The notes beneath the pieces are model-generated. The model worked only from the letters and a program-made list of their open reading frames with translations, was not told the DNA's origin and made no database searches. Below, one piece after another: positions 314 to 31,330 of a DNA stretch of 39,191 nucleotides (position 1 is the first letter of the stretch; the number at the start of each line of letters is the position of its first letter). This DNA comes from a bacterium (GTDB taxonomy: Bacteria > Patescibacteriota > Doudnabacteria > UBA920), in NCBI GenBank assembly GCA_021791515.1, contig JAJYWK010000020.1:1-39191 (forward strand), in the 5' to 3' direction. The position numbers and the translations under genes are program-made.

Positions 314-1669
314 TTACCGCTTCCTGCCGGATTCTTTTCCTAAAAATATTTTCTGGTTTTGTAAATATATTCTCGATCTCAGGCATTTCAGCAGGTTGCG
401 CTTGTCCTCCCGGCTGCCGAATTGAAGGACATACTTGGCATAACTCTTTGCATCCACTACCGGTATAGGGATATTGGTCTCCATGATCTTACCTAAAATT
501 CCCTGACTAAAGTTTTTGTACTTTTCCATTTCTTCCTGTAGCTGGCTGTTAATGCCGATCTCGTCTATGTCTACTTTGTCTATCATATCCAGCAGCTGGG
601 CGATTAGTTCTTCTTCCCTGATGAACTTCTCCGGGCAGTACCTGTCCTGGAATTTAGTGCAGTGGTAATAGACGTACCTGACGATTTTTCCGTCGCTGAG
701 TTTCTTGATCTTGTCTTCCGCCGATACGCCCGATCCGCAGTGGCCGCAGTGGATCAGCTTGGTATAGTCGAATTCCTTGCTGCCGTTTTTCGCCCTTATG
801 GGAGCGCTGATCAGGTTGCCCCGGGCATGGTCATAGAGTTCCTTGGTTATCAATGGCTCATAATTTCCTTTATACCAGTTGCCGGATTTTACTGGCCATT
901 CAAATTCCCCGTAATAGAATGGGGACGATAGTATCCTGAATATTCCACTCTTGGTAAGCGGCTTGCCTTTTCTGGTAGTAAAGCCTGTCTCATCAAGCCA
1001 ATCCTTTATCTTTTGGCCGGTATAAAACTGGAAGGCTACTTTGTTGAACATTTCTTTGACTATCGGTGCCCGTTCCGGGTCTATGATAATCCGGCTTTGC
1101 CCCCGGTAACCGATTTTTTCGTTAAGGTATCCCAAGGGTGCCATGCATGGCCGGTGGCCGGTTTCCAGCCTGGCTCTTTGTCCGCGCTTAACGTTAATCC
1201 CTCTATTGTCGTTCTCCAATTTGGCTTGGCTGCACAATATCATTAGCAGGAATTTTTCGTTTGGCGAGTTAGTAAACTTTTGACCGTGAGTTCTTATCTC
1301 TTTGAGAATTCCCTGATCCATCAAATCCACTAACGCCCCAAGGTCACCTGCGTTTCTACTTAATCTGTCCGGTGCCCAAGTTAGTATTCCATTAAAAATC
1401 CCGGACTTAATGTCCAGGATTAATTGGTTGTACACCGGCCGCATTCCCGAGGCTTTGGCTGAATGGCTTTCCCGCCTGATCTCTGTAATTAACATTCCTT
1501 CTCGCTCGGCCATAGCCAGCATCTCTTTAATCTGGCTGTCTATGCTTAAGGCTTGGCGCTCATCGTCTTCCGAACTCTTGCGGGCATAAAGGCAATATTT
1601 GACCGAGGATGCCAGCTGCGGAAGGGTTGCGGTTTGAACGGATGCCGTTAAATTTATCGATTGGTTCAT
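314..1669 (-). CDS. Large serine recombinase (integrase)
   Basis: The 451-residue protein has the serine-recombinase layout. A resolvase domain begins with YARKSSED (probable nucleophile Ser32) and contains APDRLSRN. A 'Recombinase' DNA-binding domain follows at roughly residues 175-280 (CMAPLGYLN onward). A zinc-ribbon-like CGHCG...C...C segment sits near residues 310-350, and the tail is charged. It should catalyse excision and integration of this element between the tRNA-Asn repeats. The start at 1669 is supported by an AGGAAAGGA ribosome site just upstream. It is shorter than many phage integrases of this class, with little coiled-coil tail. It sits at the left end reading outward, as expected for an integrase next to its att site. 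Confidence 0.93.
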   Translation of the reverse strand: MNQSINLTASVQTATLPQLASSVKYCLYARKSSEDDERQALSIDSQIKEMLAMAEREGMLITEIRRESHSAKASGMRPVYNQLILDIKSGIFNGILTWAPDRLSRNAGDLGALVDLMDQGILKEIRTHGQKFTNSPNEKFLLMILCSQAKLENDNRGINVKRGQRARLETGHRPCMAPLGYLNEKIGYRGQSRIIIDPERAPIVKEMFNKVAFQFYTGQKIKDWLDETGFTTRKGKPLTKSGIFRILSSPFYYGEFEWPVKSGNWYKGNYEPLITKELYDHARGNLISAPIRAKNGSKEFDYTKLIHCGHCGSGVSAEDKIKKLSDGKIVRYVYYHCTKFQDRYCPEKFIREEELIAQLLDMIDKVDIDEIGINSQLQEEMEKYKNFSQGILGKIMETNIPIPVVDAKSYAKYVLQFGSREDKRNLLKCLRSRIYLQNQKIFLGKESGRKR

Positions 1670-1772
1670 TATGTTGTTCCTTTCCTATATTAAGGCTTAC
1701 AACACAAGGAATGACGCAACCCTTTTGCTTTGTCCAGACCCCGGAAAGCTAGGGAAAATCCCTAATTTGCGC

Positions 1773-1801
1773 TTACCAAAAGCTAAAAAAGATGGTAAAA
1801 T
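1773..1801 (+). promoter_or_regulatory. Putative promoter of the methylase operon
   Basis: TTACCA and TAAAAT are separated by 17 bases, about 80 bases before the methylase start. They lie in the divergent spacer between the recombinase and the methylase. The -35 box is weak, so this is a pattern match only. Confidence 0.4.
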
Positions 1802-1882
1802 ATAAGCATAATTTACATATCCAACCAAGAAACTTAATGCTCATCAAACGAAGGCGTGATAATTTATAGTACGAAGAAATGT

Positions 1883-3091
1883 ATGGCAAACCACAATCTT
1901 ACAAGTGCCAAACGGGCAAAAAATGACGAGTTTTATACCCAATACGGCGATATCCAAAAAGAGATTCAATCGTACCTGGATTACGATGCAAAAACATTCT
2001 ATGGTAAAGTGGTGTATTGTAATTGTGATGATCCATTTGAAAGCAATTTTTTTCGTTATTTCGTTCTCAATTTCAACAAGCTGGGATTAAAACAGCTTAT
2101 TACCACCAGCTACAAACCGTCTCCAGTTGCTAACACACAGCTGGCATTGTTTGGTAACGATAAAACCCTCACAAAATCAAAAGGCCGTCCCAAAGTCACC
2201 GCCAACAAATTTATTATCAACGAAGTTGGTGATATAGATAATGATGGCGAATTTAACTTAAAAGATATTGCCCAACAATTAAAGGTGAACAAACATAATG
2301 AGTGGGCACCACTTGTGGGTGACGGCGACTTCCGTAGTAATGAATGCATAGAATTGCTTAAAAAATCGGACGTTGTGGTAACAAATCCGCCGTTCAGTCT
2401 TTTTCGTGAATATGTAAAACAACTTTTTGATTATAAAAAGAAGTTTGTGATTATTGGTAATAAAAATGCAGTAACATACAAAGAAATTTTCCCATTAATC
2501 AAAGACAACAAAATGTGGTCTGGAAAAACTGAGTGGTCCGGCGGATTATGGTTTGTAACGATGGATGACGGAGATGTCGATAAAGTGATTGATGGCGTCA
2601 ATATGAAAAATGTGTCTTCTGTTTGGTTTACAAATCTTGATCACGGACGACGCCACCAACCGCTGCCGCTTATGACAATGGAAGAAAATTTAAAATACAG
2701 CAAACACAAAGAAATCCAAGGCAAAAAAGATTATGAAAAATATGACAATTATAATGCTATAGAGGTTCCTTTTACCGATGCAATTCCAAGTGATTATGGT
2801 GGAGTAATGGGTGTACCAATTAGTTTCCTTGATAAATATAACCCGGAACAATTTGAGATTGTTGGATTAACCTCAGGCAGAGATGAATTTGAATGTAGGC
2901 CTTCAAAAAGATACCTAAACCCTCTACAACACAATCCGAATGGCACCATAACGAATGGTAGCAAGGCCAATACTCGTGCGACAATTTTGCTAAAAAATAC
3001 TCCTGACGATATTTATTACACTGCGGATAATGCGAGCGGACCATTCATGATAGCTTACGCAAGAATTTTGATTAAATATAAGAAAAAATAA
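1883..3091 (+). CDS. EcoRI-family adenine-specific DNA methyltransferase
   Basis: The N-terminus [20 protein letters not shown] and the catalytic motif TNPPFSLF (about residue 167) fit the M.EcoRI-like adenine methylase family (N6-adenine, NPPF form of motif IV). The protein is about 402 residues, near full family length. The ORF track starts at a GTG (1856), but the ATG at 1883 gives the usual N-terminus and is preferred. One base separates its stop from the DUF262-HNH gene, so the two are surely co-transcribed. The expected role is to protect host DNA from a partner nuclease. Base composition is AT-rich compared with the packaging genes to the right, which suggests separate acquisition. Confidence 0.88.
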
Positions 3092-3092
3092 T

Positions 3093-4262
3093 ATGAAAAC
3101 AACTTTAAAAATCAACACCACCGTCAAAGATATTTGCGAAGGGTTTGTTTATAACGAACTGGAAGGTAAGGGGTTGTTCGGTTTGTCAGGCAAATTGACC
3201 ATTCAGCCTGAGTACCAGCGCAATTACATTTACGCGTCCGACGGCGGAAAAAGAGAGGTTGCCGTTATTGAATCTTTGCTAAAAGGTTATCCAATAGGAT
3301 TGCTTTATTTTAATAAGGTTTCCGAAAACAATTTGGAAGTCCTGGATGGACAACAACGCATAACCAGCATCGGGCGTTTTGTTACTGATAAATTTGTCAT
3401 AATAGATGAAAATGGGATGGAACAGTATTTTGGTGGTATGGCAAAAGACAAAAAGGCAAAAATTTTAGAAACAAAATTATTGATATATGAATGCGAAGGA
3501 ACGGAAAGCGAGATAAAAGAATGGTTTAAGACCATTAACATTGCGGGTGTTCCGTTAAATAATCAGGAACTTTTGAACGCAGTATATTCCGGGCCGTTTG
3601 TTACACTTGCTAAAGAAGAGTTCAGCAACAGCCAAAATTCTAACATTCAGAAATGGAGCGCTTATATTAGAGGCAGCGCTAACAGGCAGGATTTTTTGGA
3701 AAGTGCGCTTGGCTGGGTAAGTAAAGGTAATATCGGGGAGTATATGAGTGGCCATCGCAAAGAGAAAAATATTACCGAATTAAAAAAATATTTTAACAGC
3801 GTGATTGACTGGGTTTCCAGTGTTTTTTCCGACGTAGAAAGCGAGATGTGCGGGCTGGAATGGGGACGATTGTATGAGCAGTACCATAAAAAATCATACA
3901 ACCCGGCTAAAGTATCAGTTGAGGTGCAGAAGTTATATGGGGATCCTTATCTAAAAAACCGCAAAGGTGTTTTTGAGTACATACTTGGCGGCTCTGTTGA
4001 TACAAAGTTGTTGGATGTTCGCGTTTTTGACGAGGCAACCAAAAATAATGTGTATAAGATCCAAACCGTCGAGGCTGAAAAGAAAAGTAAGTCAAACTGT
4101 CCGCTCTGTGCCATTGGACACGATGTCAACAAAAGTAAGATTTGGAAGTTAAGCGAAATGGACGCTGATCATGTTGCAGCCTGGAGTAAGGGTGGAGCCA
4201 CTTCGGGTAAAAACTGTCAGATGCTCTGCAAAACTCATAACCGAGCTAAAGGAAATCGATAA
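3093..4262 (+). CDS. DUF262 / HNH nuclease (GmrSD-like)
   Basis: The N-terminal half matches the DUF262 (ParB/Srx-like NTPase) family: [11 protein letters not shown], then [14 protein letters not shown] around residue 84-97. The C-terminus (about 335-389) is an HNH nuclease with [16 protein letters not shown] and an asparagine/histidine-containing end. DUF262 proteins with HNH ends include the GmrSD/BrxU type IV enzymes, which cleave modified DNA using NTP-dependent gating. Here the gene is fused into an operon with an EcoRI-type methylase, so it could instead act as the cleaving arm of a modification-sensitive system. The length of 389 residues is shorter than GmrSD fusions. The domain call is firm; the biological target is inferred. 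Confidence 0.87.
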
Positions 4263-4308
4263 TTTTGTAAAATACCATAAAAAATACGCCAAACAAAGAC
4301 TAAAAAAT

Positions 4309-7014
4309 ATGATAAAAGTGGATGAACAAATAGATACATCCGATAAAGCAATATGCAAACTTATTGAAAAATTTGGAACGGATGAGCGGGGGTTTTTGTC
4401 GCAAAATATTCTAGACAAACTTAGAACTTTTGTTGAGGCGGTTTCTGTTAAAGCAATTGGAGAAACTGAATATAGCTACGATATTTTTTCCAAGAAGGCA
4501 AAAAATCTTATTGCAGCAAGAGCTGATTTGAGATTTTTAAGTAAATTTCATAAAAGTCTCCAAAGTTCAAAATCACATTACGCTACCGACGAGGAGGTTT
4601 CTGAAAGACTAATGTTGAGATACTATGAATATTTACTTAGAATTAAATTTTTTTTAAAGTCAAAATACAATTTGGATGTCCTAAATAACATAGACAAATT
4701 TCCCATTGATACAGATCGGACTCTTAGCGAATATTACGAGAAAATAGCTAAAAAAATTAAAGAGCCAAGGCCAAGAAGCAGACTTATAAAAAGTTTCTAT
4801 ATACAAAAGATAAAACCATTTTTTGTCAATCAGGAAATATTTTATGAAGTTACTTTTAGAATAGCTGACGACAAACTTCGTAAATTTGATAGGCTCATTG
4901 CTTTTACAAGATTAGAAATAACCGAAAATTACGCCGTAGACCTTGCTATCGATAAAGATTATATCGAAATATCAAGCAAGAAAATGCCAATCCAAATCAT
5001 TAATGATTGGAAAGTTTCGATTCGCCCGTGTGAATTTAAGAATTATGAAAATATCTTTATTTCAGACGCTAAAGAATATAGCAGAACTAAAGAATATGAT
5101 GAAATAATGTCCTTTTTAACAGAAACGGGTTTGAATTTGATAGAAATAATTGATTTTCCTGATAATTACTATAATAGATTTAAAAGCAGAGTCACTCAAA
5201 AGTCTACAACGACTCGAATACTTGGTTTGTTAGATAAAAGTCGCGAATTTGTACAAAAGGGCTCTCCCGGAACCAATATACTTAGATATTTACTTTATCA
5301 CCTTAATAATAGAATTATAAAAGAACAATATAATAGAGGCGGCAATTTCAAATTATCGAACTTAAATCTTTTATATGAATGCATTCCTTTTGACGAAATG
5401 CCTTTTGCCAGCTGTCCTGTAAAACACACTCCAGTAATTTCTGATTTATTAGACTGTATAGATGCCACTGCCAGGGAACATGAATTATTTGCTCGACGTA
5501 TAACAGGTAATGCGGAAATTAAGGGGTGGTTGTACACGCCGCTTGAAGATGTTAATCATTTTGAAAATGTTAATGGGCTCCTTGATAAATTCAATAACTC
5601 TCTTTACCAAGGCACTGAAACCCAAAGGGATCGTAAACTTGAGACATACAAGGATCATATCTACATTACCGGGTACGAAAACGCCGTTATTGAAATTGTT
5701 AAAAAATTAAGAGATTTATCGACATCCGGCATAAAAAATTATTCTAATTCAATCAATGCTTGGTTATCCTCCTCGGATTCAGATGTTGATTGTTCTCAAA
5801 AAGAGACGGCGCTTAAAGAGATGTTTGCGGCATCAAAAGTATCGTTAATCTATGGTGCTGCTGGAACTGGAAAAACAAAACTAATAGAACATATTTCAAA
5901 ATACCATAATGAAAGAACAAAGCTTTATTTGGCAAATACACACTCTGCAGTGAGTAATTTAAGAAGCAGAATTATTGCTCAAAATACTGAATTTAAAACG
6001 ATAAAAAGTTTTTTGCATGAAAATAGTGACGAAGTAGAATTTGACCTTTTAATTATCGACGAGTGTAGCGTCGTAAGCAATTCAGACATGCGTGCCATAC
6101 TCAGAAAGGCATCATATGGCGCTTTAATTCTGGTTGGTGACATATTTCAGATAGAATCAATCCGATTTGGAAATTGGTTTTATATTGCAAAAAGCTTTGT
6201 TCCAGAATCATCTGTTATAGAATTAACTACACCATGGCGTGCAAAAAATAATAATGATTTGTTAAAGTTATGGGAGAAGGTCCGAAATTTAGAAGAAGAT
6301 ATGGATGAACATATTGCCAAACATCACTATTCTGCCAGACTAGATGATTCAATTTTTGAACATTCAGAAGAAGATGAAATAATTTTATGTTTAAATTATG
6401 ATGGATTTTATGGAATCAATAATATTAACAGGTTTTTACAGGAAAGCAACGATAAAACCCCGATAGTTTGGGGTGTTCACACATATAAGGTTAACGACCC
6501 TATCTTATTCAATGAATCCAATAGATTTGGGTCAGTAATTCACAATAACCTAAAAGGAAAAATATTAGATATAAAAATTTTTAAAGGAAGAATCCAATTT
6601 GATATCCAAATTGACAAATCAATCTCTGAATTAGATGTTCGTGGGTGTGATGATTTGGAGCTGTTAGACAGTTCCGAAGAAGGCGCATCCGCTATTCGCT
6701 TTAGCGTTAATGAGCATAGAAACATAGACGAGGACGATGACGATTCTGCATCTGATATTGTACCTTTCCAAGTTGCATACGCTGTTTCTATTCATAAAGC
6801 GCAAGGCTTAGAGTATGATTCAGTAAAAATTGTAATTACAAATGAGGCAGAGGAAAGAATCTCGCATAATGTCTTTTATACAGCCATCACAAGAGCAAAA
6901 AAGAAATTGAAAATTTATTGGACACCCGAGACTCAAAATAAAATAATAGGATCACTAGAGCAAAAATTCAATAAAAAAGACGCATATTTATTAAAATCAA
7001 AATTTAACCTATAG
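4309..7014 (+). CDS. SF1 DNA helicase with large uncharacterised N-terminus
   Basis: The C-terminal half is a superfamily 1 helicase: Walker A YGAAGTGKTKLIEH (about residue 515), Walker B LLIIDECSVVSN, motif III LVGDIFQI, a PWRAK segment, and motifs V/VI in SIHKAQGLEYDS and FYTAITRAKKKL. The first ~500 residues are not recognised; they are rich in Lys, Ile and Asn and contain a Cys-poor beta/alpha region. The longest ORF starts at 4171 and overlaps the HNH gene by 92 bases. The ATG at 4309 avoids that, but protein-like sequence begins earlier ([14 protein letters not shown]), so a start inside the overlap remains possible. It is the third gene of the methylase/DUF262-HNH operon and is notably AT-rich. 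Confidence 0.82.
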   Translation: MIKVDEQIDTSDKAICKLIEKFGTDERGFLSQNILDKLRTFVEAVSVKAIGETEYSYDIFSKKAKNLIAARADLRFLSKFHKSLQSSKSHYATDEEVSERLMLRYYEYLLRIKFFLKSKYNLDVLNNIDKFPIDTDRTLSEYYEKIAKKIKEPRPRSRLIKSFYIQKIKPFFVNQEIFYEVTFRIADDKLRKFDRLIAFTRLEITENYAVDLAIDKDYIEISSKKMPIQIINDWKVSIRPCEFKNYENIFISDAKEYSRTKEYDEIMSFLTETGLNLIEIIDFPDNYYNRFKSRVTQKSTTTRILGLLDKSREFVQKGSPGTNILRYLLYHLNNRIIKEQYNRGGNFKLSNLNLLYECIPFDEMPFASCPVKHTPVISDLLDCIDATAREHELFARRITGNAEIKGWLYTPLEDVNHFENVNGLLDKFNNSLYQGTETQRDRKLETYKDHIYITGYENAVIEIVKKLRDLSTSGIKNYSNSINAWLSSSDSDVDCSQKETALKEMFAASKVSLIYGAAGTGKTKLIEHISKYHNERTKLYLANTHSAVSNLRSRIIAQNTEFKTIKSFLHENSDEVEFDLLIIDECSVVSNSDMRAILRKASYGALILVGDIFQIESIRFGNWFYIAKSFVPESSVIELTTPWRAKNNNDLLKLWEKVRNLEEDMDEHIAKHHYSARLDDSIFEHSEEDEIILCLNYDGFYGINNINRFLQESNDKTPIVWGVHTYKVNDPILFNESNRFGSVIHNNLKGKILDIKIFKGRIQFDIQIDKSISELDVRGCDDLELLDSSEEGASAIRFSVNEHRNIDEDDDDSASDIVPFQVAYAVSIHKAQGLEYDSVKIVITNEAEERISHNVFYTAITRAKKKLKIYWTPETQNKIIGSLEQKFNKKDAYLLKSKFNL

Positions 7015-7076
7015 GATAATCATATATTCTTTGGAATAAGGTATGGCGGTACGCAAATTTTTTAACTTGATTCCGA

Positions 7077-7124
7077 AACATAATAATAAAATGATAGGTC
7101 GACCTATCATTTTATTATTATGTT
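7077..7124. terminator. 48-bp perfect palindrome / bidirectional terminator
   Basis: The 24-base arms are perfectly complementary with no spacer, centred on GGTCGACC (SalI-type core) and flanked by A/T tracts. It lies between the convergent helicase and PD-(D/E)XK genes, where a two-way terminator is expected. A perfect loopless palindrome this long is unusual for a simple terminator. Confidence 0.75.
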
Positions 7125-7139
7125 GACTATAAATTGTAG

Positions 7140-8216
7140 TTACCTGGTTAAATTTTTGATAATTGATACAAAAGTCTCCGCCTTATCCTGCCATTCTTCT
7201 ATTGTGTATGGTATAAAATGGTCACGGTAGTTATCAGGCACTTGTAGTCCCAGTTTGGTTTCTACTTCATGCTTTAAAGCATCACGGAATTTTACGGCCA
7301 TTTCATCGTCAATCAGCCAACCGAAGTTTAAAGTCAGCTTGCCGTCGGTCCAGAGCGTGTAAACCGATTTTGTTGGGCTCACACTTTCAAATACCGCATT
7401 ACAGGAACCCTTGGCCGTACCCGAACCCCATTTAATTTCTCCGTGCGACTTGGTAAAGTCGTAGAGTTTTTTGATTATGGGAATATATTTAGCATCGGTC
7501 TGTGATTTTACTGTCTCTAGGAAACTTGCTTCGTCCCAGCGCCTTCTCGGGCTGCCCGAGCCGCTGCTGACGCTGACATCCTTTTTTACTTCCGCCCCGT
7601 ATAACTTAGGGATCATTATTTCGTATTCCTTGAACCTGTAATACTCCATTTGCACGGCATAGATATCAAACTGGCTGTTCTGGTTAACGTAGACTATTAA
7701 GTCTTTGAGCCGGTCATCCAGAGAATCCATTAAGATGACGAATTTAAGGTTGCCATCTTTGAGGTTTCTTGTCATGGAATCCAGTAGCGAGTCGATCTGA
7801 TCATCGTTCAGGCCAAAGAATTCTTTGGTCTTTTCCGAAAAACTTACCTTAAAACTACTTCTGACCTTTTCGTCCAGCACGGATTGAAATTCGCTAAAAT
7901 CACCCGTATGTTTCCAGAGGGCTGCCCCGTAATCTAGCGCTTGGGCCACCACCGTCCGTTTGTCGGGATTGCGGTATAATTTGGTTTCTACGATATAGAT
8001 ATCGCCGTCTTTGTCTACAGCTAAAGCATCAATCGGCCCGGATTCAGTGGAAAATTCACGTGCAGCCACAAACAGACGTTTGTCTTCCTCTATTTCGTAT
8101 ACTGGAATGGATTCCGGATTCTGGTGAATGTAATTTTGCAGGTAGTCTTCCTTATCAAAGTTTGCTTTTTCCACCTTCTGAGCCTGCATGCCTTTTTTTG
8201 ATACGATAATAGGCAT
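7140..8216 (-). CDS. PD-(D/E)XK nuclease-family protein
   Basis: Residues 55-85 read ESGPIDALAVDKDGDIYIVE followed by TK. This gives the Asp63...Glu77-x-Lys79 pattern of a PD-(D/E)XK nuclease, similar to NucS/DUF91-like proteins. The N-terminus (NFDKEDYLQNYIHQNPESIP) also fits that group. The C-terminal half (about 230-358) looks like a separate alpha/beta domain that ends around DHFIPYTIEEWQDK; its role is not recognised. A Ser/Gly-rich linker (SVSSGSGSPRRR) separates the halves. It is the last gene of the leftward operon, 4 bases after the zinc-ribbon gene. It may act on DNA during element defence or packaging; this is inference. Confidence 0.78.
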   Translation of the reverse strand: MPIIVSKKGMQAQKVEKANFDKEDYLQNYIHQNPESIPVYEIEEDKRLFVAAREFSTESGPIDALAVDKDGDIYIVETKLYRNPDKRTVVAQALDYGAALWKHTGDFSEFQSVLDEKVRSSFKVSFSEKTKEFFGLNDDQIDSLLDSMTRNLKDGNLKFVILMDSLDDRLKDLIVYVNQNSQFDIYAVQMEYYRFKEYEIMIPKLYGAEVKKDVSVSSGSGSPRRRWDEASFLETVKSQTDAKYIPIIKKLYDFTKSHGEIKWGSGTAKGSCNAVFESVSPTKSVYTLWTDGKLTLNFGWLIDDEMAVKFRDALKHEVETKLGLQVPDNYRDHFIPYTIEEWQDKAETFVSIIKNLTR

Positions 8217-8220
8217 AGGT

Positions 8221-8472
8221 TTAATTGCCGCCTTCCGGCTTGGCGCTAACCAGCTTTGCTCCCATAGGGCTATCTGTCGGGATCATTGTTGGGTTCTTAC
8301 ATTTTGGACAAATCATTTGTTTCGTTGTTAAACGCCAAATGGAATATATTAATCCGGGAAGTATAAGAAAAAGCCAAAGGAGGATTTCTATTAAAATACT
8401 GCCTTTAGTATGTTTTTTGGGATAACCTACATACCCGCACATGGTGCAAACTTGCGTTTTTGATGTTGCCAT
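8221..8472 (-). CDS. Small zinc-ribbon membrane protein
   Basis: The 83-residue protein has one CxxC pair near the start (CTMCGYVGYPKKH), a hydrophobic segment (ILIEILLWLFLILPGLIYSI) and a second CxxC (ICPKCKNP). It looks like a split zinc ribbon around one transmembrane helix, a layout seen in small proteins of unknown function. A GAAAGGAAC ribosome site lies upstream. Its 5' side is the structured spacer 8537-8767, which could be its leader. Function is not known. Confidence 0.7.
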   Translation of the reverse strand: MATSKTQVCTMCGYVGYPKKHTKGSILIEILLWLFLILPGLIYSIWRLTTKQMICPKCKNPTMIPTDSPMGAKLVSAKPEGGN

Positions 8473-8808
8473 TTTAAAAAGTTCCTTTCTTGTAGCTGGT
8501 AACGGGCTTATGTAAACACAAGGCCGCCCGCCAGCTGGAACCTTTCGGTTCCCATATCAGTTTCCCGATATGGCCCGACAAAGAGCGCTGGACGGACGGT
8601 CCAGTATCTTTGTCGGGTCTTTCTTTCACCATGCCAAAGTATTATCTTTGGTTTAGGCTACTTTTATAAATTGTTAATGTAATTATACCTAAAATTCCTT
8701 TATCCTTCAACCAATTGTAGCTGGGCAGGCTCAAAATACCCTTGTAAATCCTTAATATTTTTACAAGCCAAGGATGCCGCAAAGGGCAAACAAAGTCCAG
8801 GAAGTTCG
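8473..8808. ncRNA. Highly structured spacer (candidate structured RNA)
   Basis: Five hairpins lie in 230 bases. They are GGAACC/GGTTCC (8537-8552); CATATC/GATATG (8553-8572); CCCGACAAAGA/TCTTTGTCGGG enclosing CTGGAC/GTCCAG (8574-8617); CCAAAG/CTTTGG (8634-8651); and CTTGTAAA/TTTACAAG (8741-8767). No ORF or poly-T run is evident. On the minus strand it sits after the terminase gene and before the zinc-ribbon gene, so it could be a leader or a processed RNA. It matches no RNA family I recognise. Strand is uncertain. Confidence 0.45.
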
Positions 8809-10269
8809 CTATATGCCGAAAACCTCAGGAGTTGCCGGTTTCTTATTCTTGCCTGCCATAATTTGGTTTACCAAAATGGCAAAGGCATCGGCTAAGTCGT
8901 CATGTTTTTCCACGCCAAAACCTATCAATTGCTGTACCAAAAATTCCGCTCCTTTTTTTGGGAATAGCACCGTACCTTGCTTTACATGCGGGCTGGTGAT
9001 CCTCAATCTCTCTTCCTTGTCCTGGCCGCAGACTTTGAATTCTTCGGCCGGGTAGCCTTCTTTCTGAAGCTGCTGTGCCAGCGCCGGTTGGTAGCCGACG
9101 GATTCTATAACAAGCCTGCTTCTTTTGCCTTTCATAAAAGACAAAGAGATTTCCTTGGCTTTGGTCAGCGTTTGGGGAAAATCCAGCCTTTCGTTGATCG
9201 GGTTCGGCAGGATGTAAATTTTCATCTGGTCGCCCCAACCGAACACGTAAGCCGAAACCATTGCCGTGTAATCTGCCGAGGTTTTGACCGAGATTGCCAA
9301 ATCTATTCCCGTAATGGCAAACCGAAAAGCATTTTTCGGATTCCTTCTATCCGGCAAATTTTCGTAATAACGAATCCATTCCGGCCTGATGACTGCGTTT
9401 TCCCGCTGAACCGGTATTAGCAAAAATTCCTGGTTCCAGGCAGCCTCGTTGCCGATTTCTTTTTTCAGCTTATCGATAGCTTCTGCATCGGGATATTTTC
9501 CGGGCCAAAGGGAATTCCCGTTTTTGTCCAGCAAAGGAAAGGCTCTGTATACGCCTTGCAGCATTCTTTCCTCAATTTCCTTTTTAAGGCGCATTATCAG
9601 GCTGTCCATATGCAATATTGACCCGGCCACTACCAAACGAGCTCCCGTCTCCCGGACCGGCATTAGGTCGTTTTTAATCCATCCGTAAAGCTTGTCGCGG
9701 CCTTCCAAAGTCTTTACCGAATTAGAATCCTCCAAGTCGTCGCAGATTATCAGCTGGGGCCTCATGCTCCCGTACCTGATACCGCGAATGCTCTGTTCGC
9801 TGGAGACGGCCATAATCATTGCATTATGCTTGGTTAGGACTATGGCGTTGCTGCGCCACACGTCGTCTTCCCGAAACGGCCCCATGTCGGATTTCAGCAA
9901 ATCGTTTTTGACCAGTTCGTCCGTAAGGTTTTTCATGTAAAGCCTGGCTTGTTCCTGGGTCTTGCCGACAATCAGGATGAACTTGTATTTCGGCTTGCCC
10001 AGCACGGCCCACAGCGGATACGAAAGGCAGAATATGGTGCTTTTGCCGGAATGGCGGAAGGCAGGTACGACCAAATGCCCTAAGCTGAAATCTTCGGTCA
10101 AGGCGTAAATCTCCCGGTGGAAATCCGGAGTGGAACATTTGACGTAATGGGCAAAGTAGAAATGGAAAAACCAAAAATGGCTTTGGGAAGTAATTTTTGT
10201 CCTAAGCCTGCGGTCTTTCACCATCAGGCTTATCAGGTCCTGCTGGGGATTGTTTGCTGGTGTCTGCAT
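8809..10269 (-). CDS. terL: Phage-type terminase large subunit
   Basis: The ATPase half has a Walker A-like FRHSGKST (about residue 75) and Walker B LIICDDLED. The C-terminal nuclease half has GIDLAIS, VIESVGYQPAL and HDDLADAFAIL, typical acidic-residue motifs of TerL RNase H-like nucleases. TerL packages DNA into procapsids by ATP-driven translocation and cuts concatemers. The start at 10269 is chosen because GGGAGG precedes it by five bases; the ORF track extends to 10290. It overlaps the small subunit gene. No portal or capsid gene is nearby, so its substrate capsid would have to come from elsewhere. Confidence 0.9.
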   Translation of the reverse strand: MQTPANNPQQDLISLMVKDRRLRTKITSQSHFWFFHFYFAHYVKCSTPDFHREIYALTEDFSLGHLVVPAFRHSGKSTIFCLSYPLWAVLGKPKYKFILIVGKTQEQARLYMKNLTDELVKNDLLKSDMGPFREDDVWRSNAIVLTKHNAMIMAVSSEQSIRGIRYGSMRPQLIICDDLEDSNSVKTLEGRDKLYGWIKNDLMPVRETGARLVVAGSILHMDSLIMRLKKEIEERMLQGVYRAFPLLDKNGNSLWPGKYPDAEAIDKLKKEIGNEAAWNQEFLLIPVQRENAVIRPEWIRYYENLPDRRNPKNAFRFAITGIDLAISVKTSADYTAMVSAYVFGWGDQMKIYILPNPINERLDFPQTLTKAKEISLSFMKGKRSRLVIESVGYQPALAQQLQKEGYPAEEFKVCGQDKEERLRITSPHVKQGTVLFPKKGAEFLVQQLIGFGVEKHDDLADAFAILVNQIMAGKNKKPATPEVFGI

Positions 10270-10717
10270 CGCTGCCTCCCAAGGCGGCAAGCTCTAAAGC
10301 CTTGCGCACTAATTGTTCTTGTTCTGGCGTCAAAGCTTCGTCATTGTTCTCCAGTTTGGCCTTTACTTCCAGCTTGGTGGCATAAGCCGGATGTCTGGAC
10401 TTCAGCCAGAAGGCAATGGCGGAAAATTCCCTGTCCTTGATGCAGGACAAAAGCTGGGACTCTGCCAAATCATTCATCAGGGCAGTGCCGTCATTAACAG
10501 CCTGTTCCACCGCTTCGGCAAAATTCCTGTCGTCTTTTTTCCACCTGTAGAAAGTCGCCCGGGCAATTCCGACTCTTTCGCAGGCAGCCTGAACGATTGG
10601 CAATTTCTTTAATTGCTCAACCAAAGCTTCTTTCTGCCTGTCTTGCCGCCCTTCCACTGCGCCCTTGCCTTCTTCCGGTTCGGGCAAGGCTTGAATCTCC
10701 GAATTAAGATGCTCCAT
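10202..10717 (-). CDS. terS: Terminase small subunit-like DNA-binding protein
   Basis: Residues 30-75 form a helix-turn-helix (LPIVQAACERVGIARATFYR), followed by alpha-helical sequence (NDGTALMNDLAESQLLS) typical of phage terminase small subunits of the phBC6A51-like HTH type. The end is Gly/Asp/Pro-rich. It overlaps the terL start by 68 bases, a classic terS-terL arrangement. It should recognise the packaging site on DNA. The start ATG has AGGAAAGGA upstream. Confidence 0.83.
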   Translation of the reverse strand: MEHLNSEIQALPEPEEGKGAVEGRQDRQKEALVEQLKKLPIVQAACERVGIARATFYRWKKDDRNFAEAVEQAVNDGTALMNDLAESQLLSCIKDREFSAIAFWLKSRHPAYATKLEVKAKLENNDEALTPEQEQLVRKALELAALGGSDADTSKQSPAGPDKPDGERPQA

Positions 10718-10721
10718 AAGA

Positions 10722-11510
10722 TTATTCCTTTCCTCCCGTGATTTTTACTGCCTTAAACCCGCTAAGATTTTCCCATCTGTTAATGATTGTGGCGCAATAT
10801 TCGGCATCCGCTTCCACGGCAAAGCATCGGCGCTTAGTCTGCTCGCAGGCAATAATCGCGGTACCCGATCCGCAGAAACCGTCAAAAACTATGTCACCGA
10901 CCTTTGTATTGTTTAGAATTAGGCGGCGTATCAAACTGACTGGCTTCATGGTCGGATGCAAAGCGCTTTTGTTCGGCTTTGGGCAAACCAAGACAGATTT
11001 GTCTTTGGCTTTAACGAAAGCGTGGCTGCCATGCCAGCCGTAAATTATCAGTTCGTGCTGGAGCAGATAGTCCTTGCGCCCTATGACCGAATGGTTTTTG
11101 ACCCAAATAAGTAGCTGGGAGAATTTAAAACCCGCCAGCTCCAGGCCGTCCTTTAGCGCAAACAGCATCCGGTCGCAGTTAAATATGTAGGCGCTATTTT
11201 TGGCGGCAAGGTAAGGCGCAATTGCATTGAGCCACTCTTTGGTGAATCTGGCGTAAGACTCTTCTGACACTTCTTCGTCATTGGCAATATCTTTTGCTTT
11301 CTTTACTTTGCTGAATCCCGCCTTGCTTTGGGCATACGCCACGCCATAAGGGGGATCGCAATTGATAGAGATAATCCGCTCGCTGCCGACAAGGCGCTTG
11401 AGCAGTTCCTTGTCGCGGCAATCACCGCAGGCAAGCCTGTGCTCGCCAAGCTTAAAAATATCTCCGGCTTTAATTGAGCTTAACCGGTTTTTGTCCCGTG
11501 AGTTTTGCAT
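10722..11510 (-). CDS. Site-specific DNA methyltransferase (DPPY type)
   Basis: The 262-residue protein carries the beta-class amino-methylase order. A target-strand start (LGEHRLACGDCRD) comes first, then motif IV CDPPYGVAY, then FDGFCGSGTAIIACEQTKRR (the SAM-binding FxGxG motif I) near the C-terminus. It should methylate adenine N6 or cytosine N4. Its N-terminal 41 bases overlap the end of the upstream ParB-methylase, and the two share the phrase 'KxGDxFxLGxHxxxCGD', so they are probably duplicated relatives. It may protect the element's DNA or mark it for packaging; that is inference. Confidence 0.88.
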   Translation of the reverse strand: MQNSRDKNRLSSIKAGDIFKLGEHRLACGDCRDKELLKRLVGSERIISINCDPPYGVAYAQSKAGFSKVKKAKDIANDEEVSEESYARFTKEWLNAIAPYLAAKNSAYIFNCDRMLFALKDGLELAGFKFSQLLIWVKNHSVIGRKDYLLQHELIIYGWHGSHAFVKAKDKSVLVCPKPNKSALHPTMKPVSLIRRLILNNTKVGDIVFDGFCGSGTAIIACEQTKRRCFAVEADAEYCATIINRWENLSGFKAVKITGGKE

Positions 11511-12765
11511 ATCTATCGAGAGTTAATTGTACGAAGGCTGGCGTGATGTCAGCCATGAATGCCCTGCGCTTTAGTTGGTCGCAGGCGACCATAATTGAGC
11601 CGCTGCCTGAAAAGATATCAAGCACGATGTCGCCGGGCTTGGTGCAGCGGCGCAAGGCTTTTTCGTGCAGGGTCGGCGGCTTTTCCGTGGCATGCGTGTA
11701 TTTGCTGGCAGAAAGCCGCTTGACCAGCCAGATGTTGAGCAAATCTAAAATATCGTCATGCAAGCGGTTGCCCGAGCTGACTTCTTTATTTAAAACTTCG
11801 TTAAGGTTTTTCACGTTTTCGTTAAGGTAGGGCTTGCCGATTACGCCGTAACTGCAAAATTCCGTTACCTTGTTGAACGCGATTTTGGGCGTCGGATTTT
11901 GGTTGTCCTTGATCCAAATACAGGTACGCTTGTTTTGGATATTAAGATAGCCGAAAATCTGCTGGATCAGTCCGGTGTAAATTTCGTCTGACCAGACGAA
12001 GAAATGGCAATCCGGATAACACACGTCCAGAACGTTCTCTATGCAGCCGGACAGGAAGCGCTCATATTCCGCCCGCGAACGGCTGTCCTCCACGGCCTCG
12101 CCGCCGTAGTTGCGTTTACCACCTATGCCTTTGCCGTAATCCAAGGAAATATTATAGACAGGATCCGTATACAGCATGGAAGCATGCTCCTTGCCCATGA
12201 GCTTAAGTACGGTGTTTGGGTCTTGCGAATCTCCGCAAATAATTTTATGCGGACCAAGCTGGAAAACATCCCCGAGCTTGATGTCCGTATCCTTGGCTTT
12301 CTCCAAAGCTTTCTTTACGTCAAAATCATCATCTTCAACCTCAAGCGATTCGTCCCAGATTGAGGACAAATCCGCATTGTCAAAACCGACATCCATTAGC
12401 AAGTTGATGTCGAATTCCTTAAGTTTTTCCCAGTCCCACCGGCCCGTGTTCCGGTTTAAGCGTAAATTAAGTTCACGCTCGCGCTCTTCTTCGGGAATAT
12501 CCACAAACACGCAGGGTACCTCCTTGTGCCCGAGCTGCTTTAGGGCTTCCAGTCGCATATGCCCGCCGATCACGTTATTTTTCCGGCTAGGCGCTCCGTT
12601 AATGATTAAAGGGTCCAGCATACCGTATTTGGAAATGCCGGTTTTGAGCTGATCCATATCGGCCTGTTCCCAGCCTCTTGGATTGTACAAGGCTGGTTTA
12701 AGCAGTTCTATTGGAACCTGAACTATTTGCAAGCCCGCAGGCTTGGTAATTTTAGTAGTTTTCAT
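11470..12765 (-). CDS. ParB-domain / DNA methyltransferase fusion
   Basis: Residues 15-110 form a ParB/Srx N-domain (LKPALYNPRGW, NVIGGHMRLEALKQLG). Residues 160-431 form a DNA methylase with YTDPVYNISLDYGK at the motif IV position and LDIFSGSGSIMVACDQLKRR as motif I. Such fusions are common next to phage terminases. Motif IV reads DPVY rather than DPPY, a substitution that could alter catalysis. It is the first gene of the leftward operon (methylases, terS, terL, zinc ribbon, nuclease). A TAATGTTG...CAACATTA inverted repeat lies just upstream of its start, and no clear ribosome site is seen. Confidence 0.88.
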   Translation of the reverse strand: MKTTKITKPAGLQIVQVPIELLKPALYNPRGWEQADMDQLKTGISKYGMLDPLIINGAPSRKNNVIGGHMRLEALKQLGHKEVPCVFVDIPEEERERELNLRLNRNTGRWDWEKLKEFDINLLMDVGFDNADLSSIWDESLEVEDDDFDVKKALEKAKDTDIKLGDVFQLGPHKIICGDSQDPNTVLKLMGKEHASMLYTDPVYNISLDYGKGIGGKRNYGGEAVEDSRSRAEYERFLSGCIENVLDVCYPDCHFFVWSDEIYTGLIQQIFGYLNIQNKRTCIWIKDNQNPTPKIAFNKVTEFCSYGVIGKPYLNENVKNLNEVLNKEVSSGNRLHDDILDLLNIWLVKRLSASKYTHATEKPPTLHEKALRRCTKPGDIVLDIFSGSGSIMVACDQLKRRAFMADITPAFVQLTLDRYAKLTGQKPVKLN

Positions 12766-12777
12766 AGCTAAAGGACT

Positions 12778-12875
12778 TAATGTTGGGCCACAGCAACATT
12801 ACCTTTTCGCCATTTGGGTAAAAAAATACCCGTAACGTCAATTGGTCGATATAAAATCACCAATAATCGTTACGG
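12778..12875. promoter_or_regulatory. Divergent control region with three inverted repeats
   Basis: Between the packaging operon and the lexA-like gene lie TAATGTTG/CAACATTA (12778-12801), GGGTA/TACCC (12817-12832) and CCGTAACG/CGTTACGG (12830-12875). The last encloses ATTGGT/ACCAAT (12841-12846 with 12859-12864). They are good candidates for repressor operators or leader hairpins. The binding protein is probably the adjacent LexA-like repressor, but that is inference. Confidence 0.5.
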
Positions 12876-12949
12876 TTTCGCTAAATAAGGGAGGATGTAT
12901 TAATTATAGGTTGTTGTATATGTTGTGTCAATTTGAGAAAGTTATCCAC

Positions 12950-12978
12950 TTTACAGCTTAGATAAAACCATATAAAAT
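12950..12978 (+). promoter_or_regulatory. Promoter of the LexA-like repressor
   Basis: TTTACA and TAAAAT are spaced by 17 bases. The -10 box ends nine bases before the ATG at 12988, so the transcript is predicted to be leaderless or nearly so. No Shine-Dalgarno sequence is present, which agrees. Confidence 0.6.
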
Positions 12979-12987
12979 AATATAGTT

Positions 12988-13659
12988 ATGACTATCCCAA
13001 GCCGACAGCCATTAACCCCCAAACAGCACAAATTTTACCTTATTCTAAAGGATTATTGGGCTAAATGGGGCAAATCGCCCAGTCTGCCCGAATTACGGGC
13101 ATCGCTTGAAGCTTCATCTTTAAGGTCGGTTTCTCAATATCTTAAGATCCTAGAGCGAAAAGGATATATCCACAGGGCAAAATACCAAAAAAGGTCTATT
13201 CAGCTTGTAGGCGAAGGCCAGTCACCGACCATCCAGTTACCAGTTTTGAGCGCCGCCGGTTGTGATAATGCCAGCATAATTGCTGACCGGCTTTATGACG
13301 AATATATTGACGTAAGCTCGCAGATGTTAAACAGGAAAAATCCCGATAAAGTGGTGGCAATTAAGGCAGTGGGGAATTCCATGGTGGATGCAGGAATAGA
13401 TAACGGCGATTACGTCATCACTGAAATGACGCCGGAAGCCGAAGAAAATGATTTAGTCGTTGCCGTCGTGGACGGGATGGCTGTCATAAAAAAAATCTCC
13501 TTCGCCAATAACGCCGCGATTTTAAATCCGGTTAGTTCCGATAAGTCTTACCGGCCAATTATCGTTCAAAGGAATTTCCAGATTTTCGGCAAGGTTATAA
13601 ATTCCATAAAAATACCAAAACAAATTGAATTTAAATATGTAGATATAATTGATTCTTAA
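12988..13659 (+). CDS. LexA/CI-like self-cleaving repressor (S24 family)
   Basis: The N-terminal winged-helix part (about 8-70: LTPKQHKFYLILKDYW, SVSQYLKILERKGYI) is LexA-like. A cleavable Ala90-Gly91 pair (SAAGCDNAS) precedes the S24 peptidase part with Ser131 (AVGNSMVDAG) and Lys168 (GMAVIKK). These are the residues needed for RecA-stimulated self-cleavage. It sits divergently to the packaging operon and inside the mobile element. It is therefore likely the element's own DNA-damage switch rather than the host LexA, although a host-type LexA is possible. It is followed by a terminator. Confidence 0.9.
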   Translation: MTIPSRQPLTPKQHKFYLILKDYWAKWGKSPSLPELRASLEASSLRSVSQYLKILERKGYIHRAKYQKRSIQLVGEGQSPTIQLPVLSAAGCDNASIIADRLYDEYIDVSSQMLNRKNPDKVVAIKAVGNSMVDAGIDNGDYVITEMTPEAEENDLVVAVVDGMAVIKKISFANNAAILNPVSSDKSYRPIIVQRNFQIFGKVINSIKIPKQIEFKYVDIIDS

Positions 13660-26164: not shown

Positions 26165-26182
26165 CTACGAATGACTACAAAT
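26165..26182. repeat. Left inverted copy flanking GxxExxY gene 1
   Basis: CTACGAATGACTACAAAT; its reverse complement supplies the TAG stop (26175-26177) of the GxxExxY gene. It matches 26568-26585 inverted in 17 of 18 positions. Confidence 0.8.
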
Positions 26183-26579
26183 GCTCCGCAGGATTCCGCA
26201 GATTATTAATATTTAAAATTCTTTTAGGATTAATTCTTTTGTCCCTAAAATTTACCAATAATCCCAGTTGATAGCCGGTTTGGTATAGATATCTTTTTAT
26301 CTGATCGTAGTGCTCGGAAGTGATAAACGGGGCTGTTTTAAATTCTATTATGATTTTACCATCTATATCAAAATCCGCAATGTTGCCGGAGTCGCCAATT
26401 CTTAATTCTCTTATATATGAAATTTTGTTTTCTTTAAGTTTTTGTTCAAACCAGTCGCAATATTGCTTTTCCCGAGCAAAAGAGCCCAGTTCTTTTTGCG
26501 CCCGCATCATTAAACCTACCAGCTGATAACTTAAATCTTTATATAATATTTTTTCTTCCGGGTTTGAATTTGTAGTCAT
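26175..26579 (-). CDS. GxxExxY-family protein (copy 1)
   Basis: The 134-residue protein fits the GxxExxY family (PD-(D/E)XK-like): ELGSFAREKQYCDWFEQKLK aligns with the family motif (Phe replaces the first Gly), then NIADFDIDGKIIIEFKTAPF (Asp...Glu-x-Lys) and QLGLLVNFRDKRINPKRILN. The biochemical role is not established. Its ATG sits in one copy of a CTACAAATGACTACAAAT repeat and its stop in the inverted copy. It sits between HAD and purE in the operon and is probably an insertion. Confidence 0.85.
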   Translation of the reverse strand: MTTNSNPEEKILYKDLSYQLVGLMMRAQKELGSFAREKQYCDWFEQKLKENKISYIRELRIGDSGNIADFDIDGKIIIEFKTAPFITSEHYDQIKRYLYQTGYQLGLLVNFRDKRINPKRILNINNLRNPAEHL

Positions 26580-29809: not shown

Positions 29810-31288
29810 TTAGAACAGGGCTCCCTGCGGCTTCACTTCTCCTGCGTACACCGGCTGTTTTACTTCTTTTGTCCGTTCCAGTAAATCAATTGGATATTCA
29901 CCGGTAAAGCAGGAGGTGCAAAATAAATTAGAATCTATGCCGGTAGAATCCATTAATCCTTTTAAAGACAAGAAGTAAAGCGAGGTGGCGCCTAAAAATT
30001 GGCGGATTTCTTCCACGGTCTTGTGCGAAGCGATTAGTTTTTCCTGCTTGGGGGTATCGATTCCGTAAAAGTCCGGGAATTTAACCGGCGGGGAAGAAAT
30101 TAGCATATGAACTTCAAGACAGCCGGCATCAAATAACATCTTAACCAGTTGGCGGGAAGTGGTGCCGCGGACAATGGAGTCGTCCATTACGATAATTTTT
30201 TTGCCCTGTAAAACTTCCCGCAAGGGGGTAAGTTTTAATTTAACGCCCAAATCGCGGCTGTGCTGTTCGGGTTGAATAAAGGTGCGGTGGATGTAGCGGT
30301 TTTTTACCAAAGCCATTTCCATGGGGATGCCGCTTTTTTTGCTGTAGCCGGAAGCTACGGGATAGGCGGTTTCCGGCACCGGAACCACAATGTCGGCATC
30401 TATTTTACATTCCTCGGCCAGCTTCATGCCACAGTTGCGGCGAGTTTCGTAAACCGATTTGCCTAAAATTTGGCTGTCTGGCCGGGCAAAGTACACAAAT
30501 TCAAAAATGTCCACCTTGGTTTTAGATTCTTGTATTTGCACTGACTCAATGCCTTTATCTGTTACTATTACCATTTCGCCGGGGTTGACTTCGCGGATGA
30601 GTTCAGCGCCCACGGTGTGAAAGGCACAGGACTCGGAAGCAAATACAGTGGCGGAGTTATTTACCCCGTTAAATTTCGCCTCTGGCGAACCGGCTTCGCC
30701 GGATTTAACGGGGTAAATACGGCCCATACAAAGCGGCCTGATGCCGTAAGTGTCCCGCACGGCTACCAGGGAGTCTTTGGTTAAAATGGTTAAAGAAAAA
30801 GCGCCGGTAAAAAGCGGGTAAGCTTTAATTACGGCGTCTTTAATTGTGTGTCCGTGTTCCAAATAGTAGGCCAAGGCCTTGGTCATAAGTTCGGAATCGG
30901 AACAATCCAAGGTGGAAATATCCTTTGCTTCTAAAAATTCTTTAAGTTTAGTGGTGGATGGCAAATTGCCGTTATGCGCCAAGGCGAGCTGGTTGTTAAC
31001 AATAACCGGCTGGGCGTGCTTAATATGCGAGCCTTCGGAAGTGGAATAGCGGTTGTGGCCGATGCCAATATGCCCCTTTAAGCTGGTAATAGTTTCTTCA
31101 TTATAGACCTGGGTTACAAGTCCCATATTTTTATAACAGTCAATATGGTTGCCGTCGGCTGTGGCAATCCCTGAACTTTCCTGGCCGCGGTGCTGTAGGG
31201 CAAACAGGCCGTAAAAAGTCAGCCTGGATACGTCCAGGTCTTTGCCGTAAATTCCAAACACGCCGCATTTTTCGTTTAAATTATTCAT
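29810..31288 (-). CDS. purF: Amidophosphoribosyltransferase
   Basis: The start at 31288 gives MNNLNEKCGVFGIYG, where Cys8 becomes the N-terminal nucleophile after propeptide cleavage. A GGAG ribosome site lies 7 bases upstream. Family motifs are LFALQHRGQESSGIA, IGIGHNRYSTSEGS, QLALAHNGNL, KIIVMDDSIVRGTTSRQLV (PRPP loop) and LFCTSCFTGEYP. It transfers glutamine ammonia to PRPP, the committed step. Compared with typical enzymes it carries about 20 extra residues (YPVKSGEAGSPEAKF) between RPLCMGR and VFASESCAF, encoded by the palindrome 30658-30719. Confidence 0.96.
   Translation of the reverse strand: MNNLNEKCGVFGIYGKDLDVSRLTFYGLFALQHRGQESSGIATADGNHIDCYKNMGLVTQVYNEETITSLKGHIGIGHNRYSTSEGSHIKHAQPVIVNNQLALAHNGNLPSTTKLKEFLEAKDISTLDCSDSELMTKALAYYLEHGHTIKDAVIKAYPLFTGAFSLTILTKDSLVAVRDTYGIRPLCMGRIYPVKSGEAGSPEAKFNGVNNSATVFASESCAFHTVGAELIREVNPGEMVIVTDKGIESVQIQESKTKVDIFEFVYFARPDSQILGKSVYETRRNCGMKLAEECKIDADIVVPVPETAYPVASGYSKKSGIPMEMALVKNRYIHRTFIQPEQHSRDLGVKLKLTPLREVLQGKKIIVMDDSIVRGTTSRQLVKMLFDAGCLEVHMLISSPPVKFPDFYGIDTPKQEKLIASHKTVEEIRQFLGATSLYFLSLKGLMDSTGIDSNLFCTSCFTGEYPIDLLERTKEVKQPVYAGEVKPQGALF
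30658..30719. repeat. In-frame palindromic insert in purF
   Basis: TATTTACCCCGTTAAAT (30658-30674) and ATTTAACGGGGTAAATA (30703-30719) pair over 17 bp. Between them are two hairpins, TTCGCC/GGCGAA and CCGGC/GCCGG. The folded form is a three-way cruciform. It encodes the extra PurF segment. Confidence 0.85.
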
Positions 31289-31298
31289 AATTAAACTC

Positions 31299-31330
31299 CT
31301 ACGAAACACGAAAGAAACGAAATACGAAAT
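31299..31330. repeat. Solo copy of the ACGAAA repeat upstream of purF
   Basis: CTACGAAACACGAAAGAAAC then GAAATACGAAAT. It is nearly identical to the inverted repeats around the GxxExxY part of purN, but no GxxExxY gene is attached. It lies just upstream of the purF ribosome site. Confidence 0.8.

Follow-up and report, generated by a model that had tools for sequence, protein, structure and literature searches.

To our knowledge, most descriptions of palindromes inside protein-coding sequence come from Rickettsia, Wolbachia and some REP-bearing bacteria. Rickettsia palindromic elements (RPEs) and the corresponding Wolbachia elements are dispersed and occur between genes, in frame within conserved genes and also in RNA genes, and a host protein that was tested keeps its activity (PMC2229807). 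RPEs are 105-146 bp long, and RPE-4 and RPE-6 end in CGTC (PMC3733652). REP elements associated with RAYTs (REPtrons) form hairpins, have no observed target duplication and sometimes lie inside DNA-repair genes (PMC3733652). Bacterial MITEs such as NEMIS, RUP, ERIC and RU-3 are small and non-autonomous, have inverted arms and in some cases carry ORFs fused to genes (PMC2229807). Perfect inverted repeats are also found inside translated genes of Nematomorpha mitochondria (PMC6649704), although these do not derive from the dispersal of a single sequence family.

The palindrome analyzed here lies in purF, within a window (the whole stretch of DNA analyzed) of 39,191 nucleotides, and palindromes of its type resemble those of Rickettsia and Wolbachia in being short and dispersed, in frame in protein genes, intergenic and present in tRNA genes. 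The first-pass annotation had drawn a parallel with RPEs, which is valid as an analogy, as both are in-frame palindromes in protein genes whose homologues lack them, but does not extend to sequence, length or end tag. All checks suggested there gave favorable outcomes, whereas the cross-phylum distribution, the extreme arm conservation, the asymmetry of the ends and the relatives carrying tRNA genes were not anticipated. The purF copy is 54 bp long, and its family has the ends TTYACCCC/GGGGTRAA, combines ACCCCGTTAAAT arms with two zero-spacer hairpins and is spread over many phyla. In contrast to REP/RAYT systems, the family lacks the GTAG tag and none of the RAYTs examined is flanked by its arms. 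Terminal inverted repeats are shared with MITEs, but the absence of target-site duplication at the uvrB and purF empty sites, a perfect-arm unit below 70 bp and a variable interior between fixed arms all differ from a classical MITE. A literature search, with subscription literature mostly outside its scope, returned no description of such elements in Patescibacteria and found the arm sequence in just four papers, all on unrelated subjects.

The host gene, purF (amidophosphoribosyltransferase; 29810-31309, minus strand), is intact, as judged from its ORF, its Pfam GATase domain and alignment with relatives. Its 499-aa ORF, with a likely ATG start at 31288, continues uninterrupted across the palindrome, the catalytic Cys and the PRPP loop DDSIVRGTT are present, and the product aligns almost end to end with Bacillus subtilis PurF (PDB 1ao0/1gph; E about 1e-118). 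The left arm, TATTTACCCCGTTAAAT (30658-30674, 17 nt), and the right arm, ATTTAACGGGGTAAATA (30703-30719, 17 nt), are 100% complementary over 17 nt and are separated by 28 nt. This interior consists of two perfect hairpins that abut each other and both arms, hairpin A (TTCGCC-TCT-GGCGAA, 30675-30689) and hairpin B (CCGGC-TTC-GCCGG, 30690-30702), such that as a single strand the palindrome folds into a three-way junction with unpaired bases only in two 3-nt loops. Its predicted DNA fold has an energy of -29.5 kcal/mol, compared with -12.3 +/- 2.8 for shuffled sequences (z = -6.2; none of 200 as good). Sequence, fold and ORF thus confirm the 17-bp stem with two internal hairpins, in frame within purF at 30658-30719, that the first-pass annotation had reported. 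Elsewhere in the window, PurN is fused to a PD-(D/E)XK domain (PF13366; 28691-29725), and a second, stand-alone PF13366 protein is encoded at 26175-26579 in the same purine gene cluster. The region 314-13659 encodes a serine recombinase and a GmrSD-type HNH protein; DNA methylases, a terminase-like protein and a LexA-like repressor were recognized there by eye, and the whole resembles an integrated mobile element or a prophage.

PurF, whole or partial, was recovered in 16 of 30 relatives. The four closest, same-genus species (G001-G004), with PurF 82-85% identical to that of the source genome, have an empty site, relative to which exactly 54 nt (18 codons) are extra here; the relatives read GKI-(N)GDATVFAS or GKI-DGGYV where the source protein reads GRI-YPVKSGEAGSPEAKFNGV-NNSATVFAS. 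These empty sites define a minimal inserted unit of 54 bp, T-ACCCC...GGGGT-A (30662-30715), which encodes YPVKSGEAGSPEAKFNGV and entered the ancestral gene between ATT and AAT, a net gain of 50 + 4 = 54 nt without target duplication. The first-pass annotation had counted about 20 extra residues; the extra residues are real, but alignment with relatives gives 18. Had all relatives shared the segment without palindromic DNA, the insertion reading would have been refuted, whereas relatives without the segment exist. In the solved B. subtilis enzyme, the position of the insert corresponds to a short, tight turn that joins two glutaminase-domain strands. An AlphaFold model of PurF (seven sequences) is weak overall, with a mean pLDDT of 66, and the insert falls among its low-pLDDT stretches (202-217); the argument for a loop therefore rests on the alignment with solved PurF together with the low pLDDT of residues 202-217. 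We consider it highly probable that a short palindromic mobile element, non-autonomous and translated when it lies within a gene, inserted recently at this position of purF.

The source genome (1.17 Mb in 70 contigs, read in stretches) contains 37 arm matches, compared with 3 for a reversed-pattern control, and full or partial copies occupy about 15-20 places. Besides purF, copies lie in frame in three further conserved genes, fusA (EF-G), valS and uvrB, and others are intergenic or surround tRNA genes. The four coding copies have in common the peptide PVKSGxAGxPxAxFNGxx (in its longer form HPVKSGxAGxPxAxFNGVK), or a form one residue off. In uvrB the copy is again a 54-nt unit: a relative has the empty site GGCATT-AAAGTC, where the source genome reads GGGATT-(CACCCC...AGGGTA)-AAAGTG. 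The fusA site is empty in seven relatives, the perfect arm pair is missing in 39, and most orthologues are empty. One congener, G003, also has an in-frame palindrome at this EF-G turn, but a different one (L223), with arms AATCCCGTTAGAAGT/ACTTCTAACGGGAC and hairpins AGACGCC-GGA-GGCGTCT and GGTGCGC-AA-GCGCACC. Its arms belong to a second type, TTCTAACGGGGTRAAT, that is also present in the source genome (L265 on C17, L266 at C19:9826 and L264 at C44:8278). The valyl-tRNA synthetase encoded by valS (L003) has a second insertion besides the palindrome, an ASCH domain within the catalytic part.

To survey other genomes, we used the pattern ACCCCGTTAAAT-N(12-42)-ATTTAACGGGGT with one genome per species, so that the arms were fixed by the query and the interiors were not. 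At least 119 loci with perfect arms were found, all sharing with the purF left arm the core ACCCCGTTAAAT. Among the matches listed, the Patescibacteria hosts include Parcubacteria, Moranbacteria, Nealsonbacteria, Staskawiczbacteria, Buchananbacteria, Nomurabacteria and others, and hosts elsewhere include Bacteroidales, WOR-3/Stahlbacteria, Omnitrophota, Cloacimonadota, Zixibacteria, Calditrichaceae and Desulfobacterales. The arms of the family, 13-15 bp long, are nearly invariant (TTYACCCCGTTAAAT/ATTTAACGGGGTRAA), the interior is variable, and units with perfect arms measure 39-68 bp; arm variants occur in other genomes of the phylum sample (CCCTGTTAAAT in G013, CCCCGTTAGAT in G289 and CCCCGTCAAAT in G071). 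Two interior types are found among the matches listed: a two-hairpin form, usual in Patescibacteria, and an unstructured form of 60-66 nt, typical of WOR-3. Two perfect abutting hairpins are present in 39 of 110 distinct interiors among these matches and in none of 200 shuffles, and 72 of 96 hairpin loops are 3 nt long, mostly AAA, TTT, TTC or GAA.

The ends of the element provide further information on how it may be recognized. Tandem copies at three loci (L058, L074 and L139) repeat with a period of core + 2, which, together with the purF and uvrB empty sites, indicates that the inserted unit is N-ACCCC...GGGGT-N, without target duplication. The end consensus is TTYACCCC/GGGGTRAA, with R-A-A following GGGGT. 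Among the matches listed, 74 of the 85 elements with a purine after GGGGT at both ends are asymmetric, with GGGGTGAA at one end and GGGGTAAA at the other (p = 1e-12). Owing to this asymmetry, the palindrome has, immediately beyond its 12-bp stem, a C.A or T.G mispair that is conserved; the purF copy, with T/A at that position, is an exception. Where a palindrome is perfect but for one conserved mispair, that mispair distinguishes one strand from the other, as is the case for attC sites and IS200/IS605 hairpins, and 3-nt loops suit DNA mini-hairpins better than RNA tetraloops. From the end mispair and the zero-spacer interior with its 3-nt loops, we infer that the element is recognized as folded single-stranded DNA.

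An enzyme of this kind might already be known, if the element belonged to the TIR family that Y1 tyrosine transposases (TIRYT/RAYT) mobilize, a class already described. That class has the motif GGGGWSAS, close to GGGGTRAA, and its REPs also occur in uvrA/B, uvrD, polA and tRNA synthetase genes (PMC3733652). The purF-type elements are likewise inserted without target duplication, have GGGGT-rich arms and occur as single, dimer and clustered copies, as in TIRtrons. However, GGGGTRAA differs from GGGGWSAS at the last position and reads outward, and no transposase linked to it was found among the loci examined. We searched 18 genomes for Y1 transposases (Pfam PF01797) and read the neighborhoods of about 40 matches. 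Matches were found in the source genome and in 14 of the 18 tested genomes, but the element-rich genomes G305 and G306 had no PF01797 match, and the arms were absent from all of the approximately 40 Y1 loci in 14 element-bearing or related genomes. The RAYT-like genes of the source genome (C35) and of G314, also rejected as partners, have other palindromes. In G307 (WOR-3), four Y1 genes (L324, L325, L327 and L328) are flanked by their own 23-28 nt TIRs starting TGGGGTCA, a typical TIRYT-like arrangement, but these TIRs point inward, in the opposite sense to the purF-type arms. Such TIRYT-like genes remain the nearest lead to a partner, and membership of the described class, though not to be discarded, is an unlikely explanation. 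No carrier of the element was found among phages, plasmids and viral contigs, and no long element with the same arms was present among the fetched loci, which spanned only 3-8 kb in fragmented genomes.

The elements could also be retained for a function, as a regulatory RNA structure, a protein-binding DNA site or a useful peptide, and not as passengers. Support comes from the copy in rplR (ribosomal protein L18), which in three species (L049, L097 and L142) is identical at 55/55 and 54/55 positions (98-100%) with flanking DNA only 70-76% identical; this is also a point against a neutral, vertically inherited passenger. The L18 copy may reflect either a recent insertion or replacement at one site in several species or a constrained sequence. 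Arms common to many phyla would also be consistent with function, although they are equally explained as the recognition sequence of a mobilizing enzyme. Furthermore, the EF-G site is occupied in two species by different palindromes, and L114 and L121 have the same arms at the same site of the same gene with hairpins and length that differ. The latter difference favors repeated insertion or exchange, and recurrent sites can reflect few tolerated positions combined with a TT/AA-like target. Given also the patchy presence of the elements, with 39 relatives lacking the perfect pair and most orthologues empty, we regard a selected function as improbable.

If the elements are instead passengers that are translated, as we favor, they should leave a trace in reading frames. 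For this test we took the elements with enough flank and counted those in an ORF that stays open for 50 aa or more in each direction. Among the matches listed, 22 elements lie inside open ORFs, and in 20 of the 22 the unit length is a multiple of 3. No ORF among the matches with enough flank is restored only by excising the element, compared with 3-4 restored by chance in control excisions, indicating that broken genes are absent from the sample and not merely missed. Hosts verified by Pfam include type IV pilins, rpoC, polA (at two different sites), rplR, uvrD, an mfd-like gene, tsaE, ftsZ (at the N-terminus), apgM, rsmI, porG, PGI and atpG. In three type IV pilin-like genes (L119, L073 and L140), the position of the element coincides exactly with the GFTLIE prepilin signal, so that the product reads GFTPLN...LTGFTLIE. 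Such a pattern would be expected of a translated element of which only harmless insertions in essential genes survive, and argues against splicing or bypass.

The splicing or bypass reading, in which the palindrome acts as a small intron or is skipped by the ribosome and PurF is made without the extra residues, has in its favor the high stability of the hairpins and the fact that some of the host proteins are among the most conserved in the cell. It has a counterpart in the byp elements of Magnusiomyces mitochondria, and palindromic elements of yeast mitochondria that are bypassed in translation have been described (cited in PMC6649704). Removal at the RNA level requires no reading frame, however, yet the frame is kept in the counts above, and the purF insertion lies at a turn of solved homologues; we consider this reading very unlikely. 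An assembly or library artefact, for which it can be said that most named genomes with the element are metagenome assemblies, can be practically disregarded, as the same arms occur in MAGs of many laboratories and sites, the same element occupies the same site of L18 in three species and the frame is kept in coding genes. Several other identities were rejected: the order of boxes is the reverse of that in integron attC sites (GTTAAAT ... ATTTAAC here, RYYYAAC ... GTTRRRY there), the only Rfam match is a 21-bit hit to a microRNA family with a gathering score of 66, and an intrinsic terminator is incompatible with the missing T-run and with copies in mid-gene.

Inverted arms of the same kind (CCCCG../..CGGGG) also enclose six complete tRNA genes of the source genome, each nested inside a tRNA gene of the same isotype (L260 and L267 on C70, L261 on C62, L262 on C22, L263 on C21 and L264 on C44). 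Nested loci were also identified in G003 (L343), G022 (L344 and L346) and G008 (L303), and the isotypes involved are Arg, Pro, Thr, Val, Leu and Ala. Most invaded tRNAs additionally bear a second small palindrome of about 35-43 nt. The outer tRNA is uninterrupted in sister species, and after excision of the palindrome plus 4 nt, ARAGORN recognizes four of five outer tRNAs with the same anticodon (the Val boundary was set by eye); the fifth, Ala, then has one base too many in its anticodon loop. For the inner tRNAs, the nearest matches are tRNAs of other species (for example, Thr 99% to G008 and Ala 96% to G025). In the nests of G003 (Ala) and G022 (Ala, Thr), the outer Ala tRNA has lost its anticodon, and the inner Ala tRNA most likely replaces it for this reason. 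The same loss, together with a decayed T-stem in the outer Thr tRNA of the source genome, weakens splicing of the outer tRNAs as an explanation. We regard the nests as related to the purF-type family but unexplained.

As a working mechanism, we propose that a trans-acting enzyme would recognize one strand of the arm as folded single-stranded DNA and thereby move the element, an inference from assemblies alone, as movement has not been observed. The purF copy would then be translated within PurF as a flexible, hydrophilic surface loop (PVKSG..FNGV) that PurF tolerates, although there are no translation or activity data. Since insertions disrupting essential genes are lost, the element may persist for the most part as a passenger, either selfish or neutral. 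Judged by sequence comparison, the family itself is previously unrecognized and separate from the palindromes of Rickettsia, Wolbachia and REP systems, and its mobility mechanism is unproven. Only tentatively do we offer the full account, namely that the family is undescribed and crosses phyla, that an enzyme not yet identified recognizes the conserved end mispair and moves the elements as folded single-stranded DNA, that essential proteins gain translated peptides from them, and that some members bring a complete tRNA gene into its cognate, so that the gene destroyed by the insertion is also rescued by it.

If the insert is translated, PurF would hold peptides such as YPVKSGEAGSPEAK or FNGVNNSATVFASESCAF. 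The family occurs in many uncultivated phyla and decorates RNA polymerase, EF-G, DNA polymerase I and ribosomal protein L18. It accounts for odd insertions in proteins of Patescibacteria, provides natural experiments on loop gain in essential proteins and points to an unknown mobilizing enzyme. In its tRNA-carrying forms a cognate tRNA lies within the tRNA that is disrupted, and insertions that rescue themselves in this way would be of a new kind.
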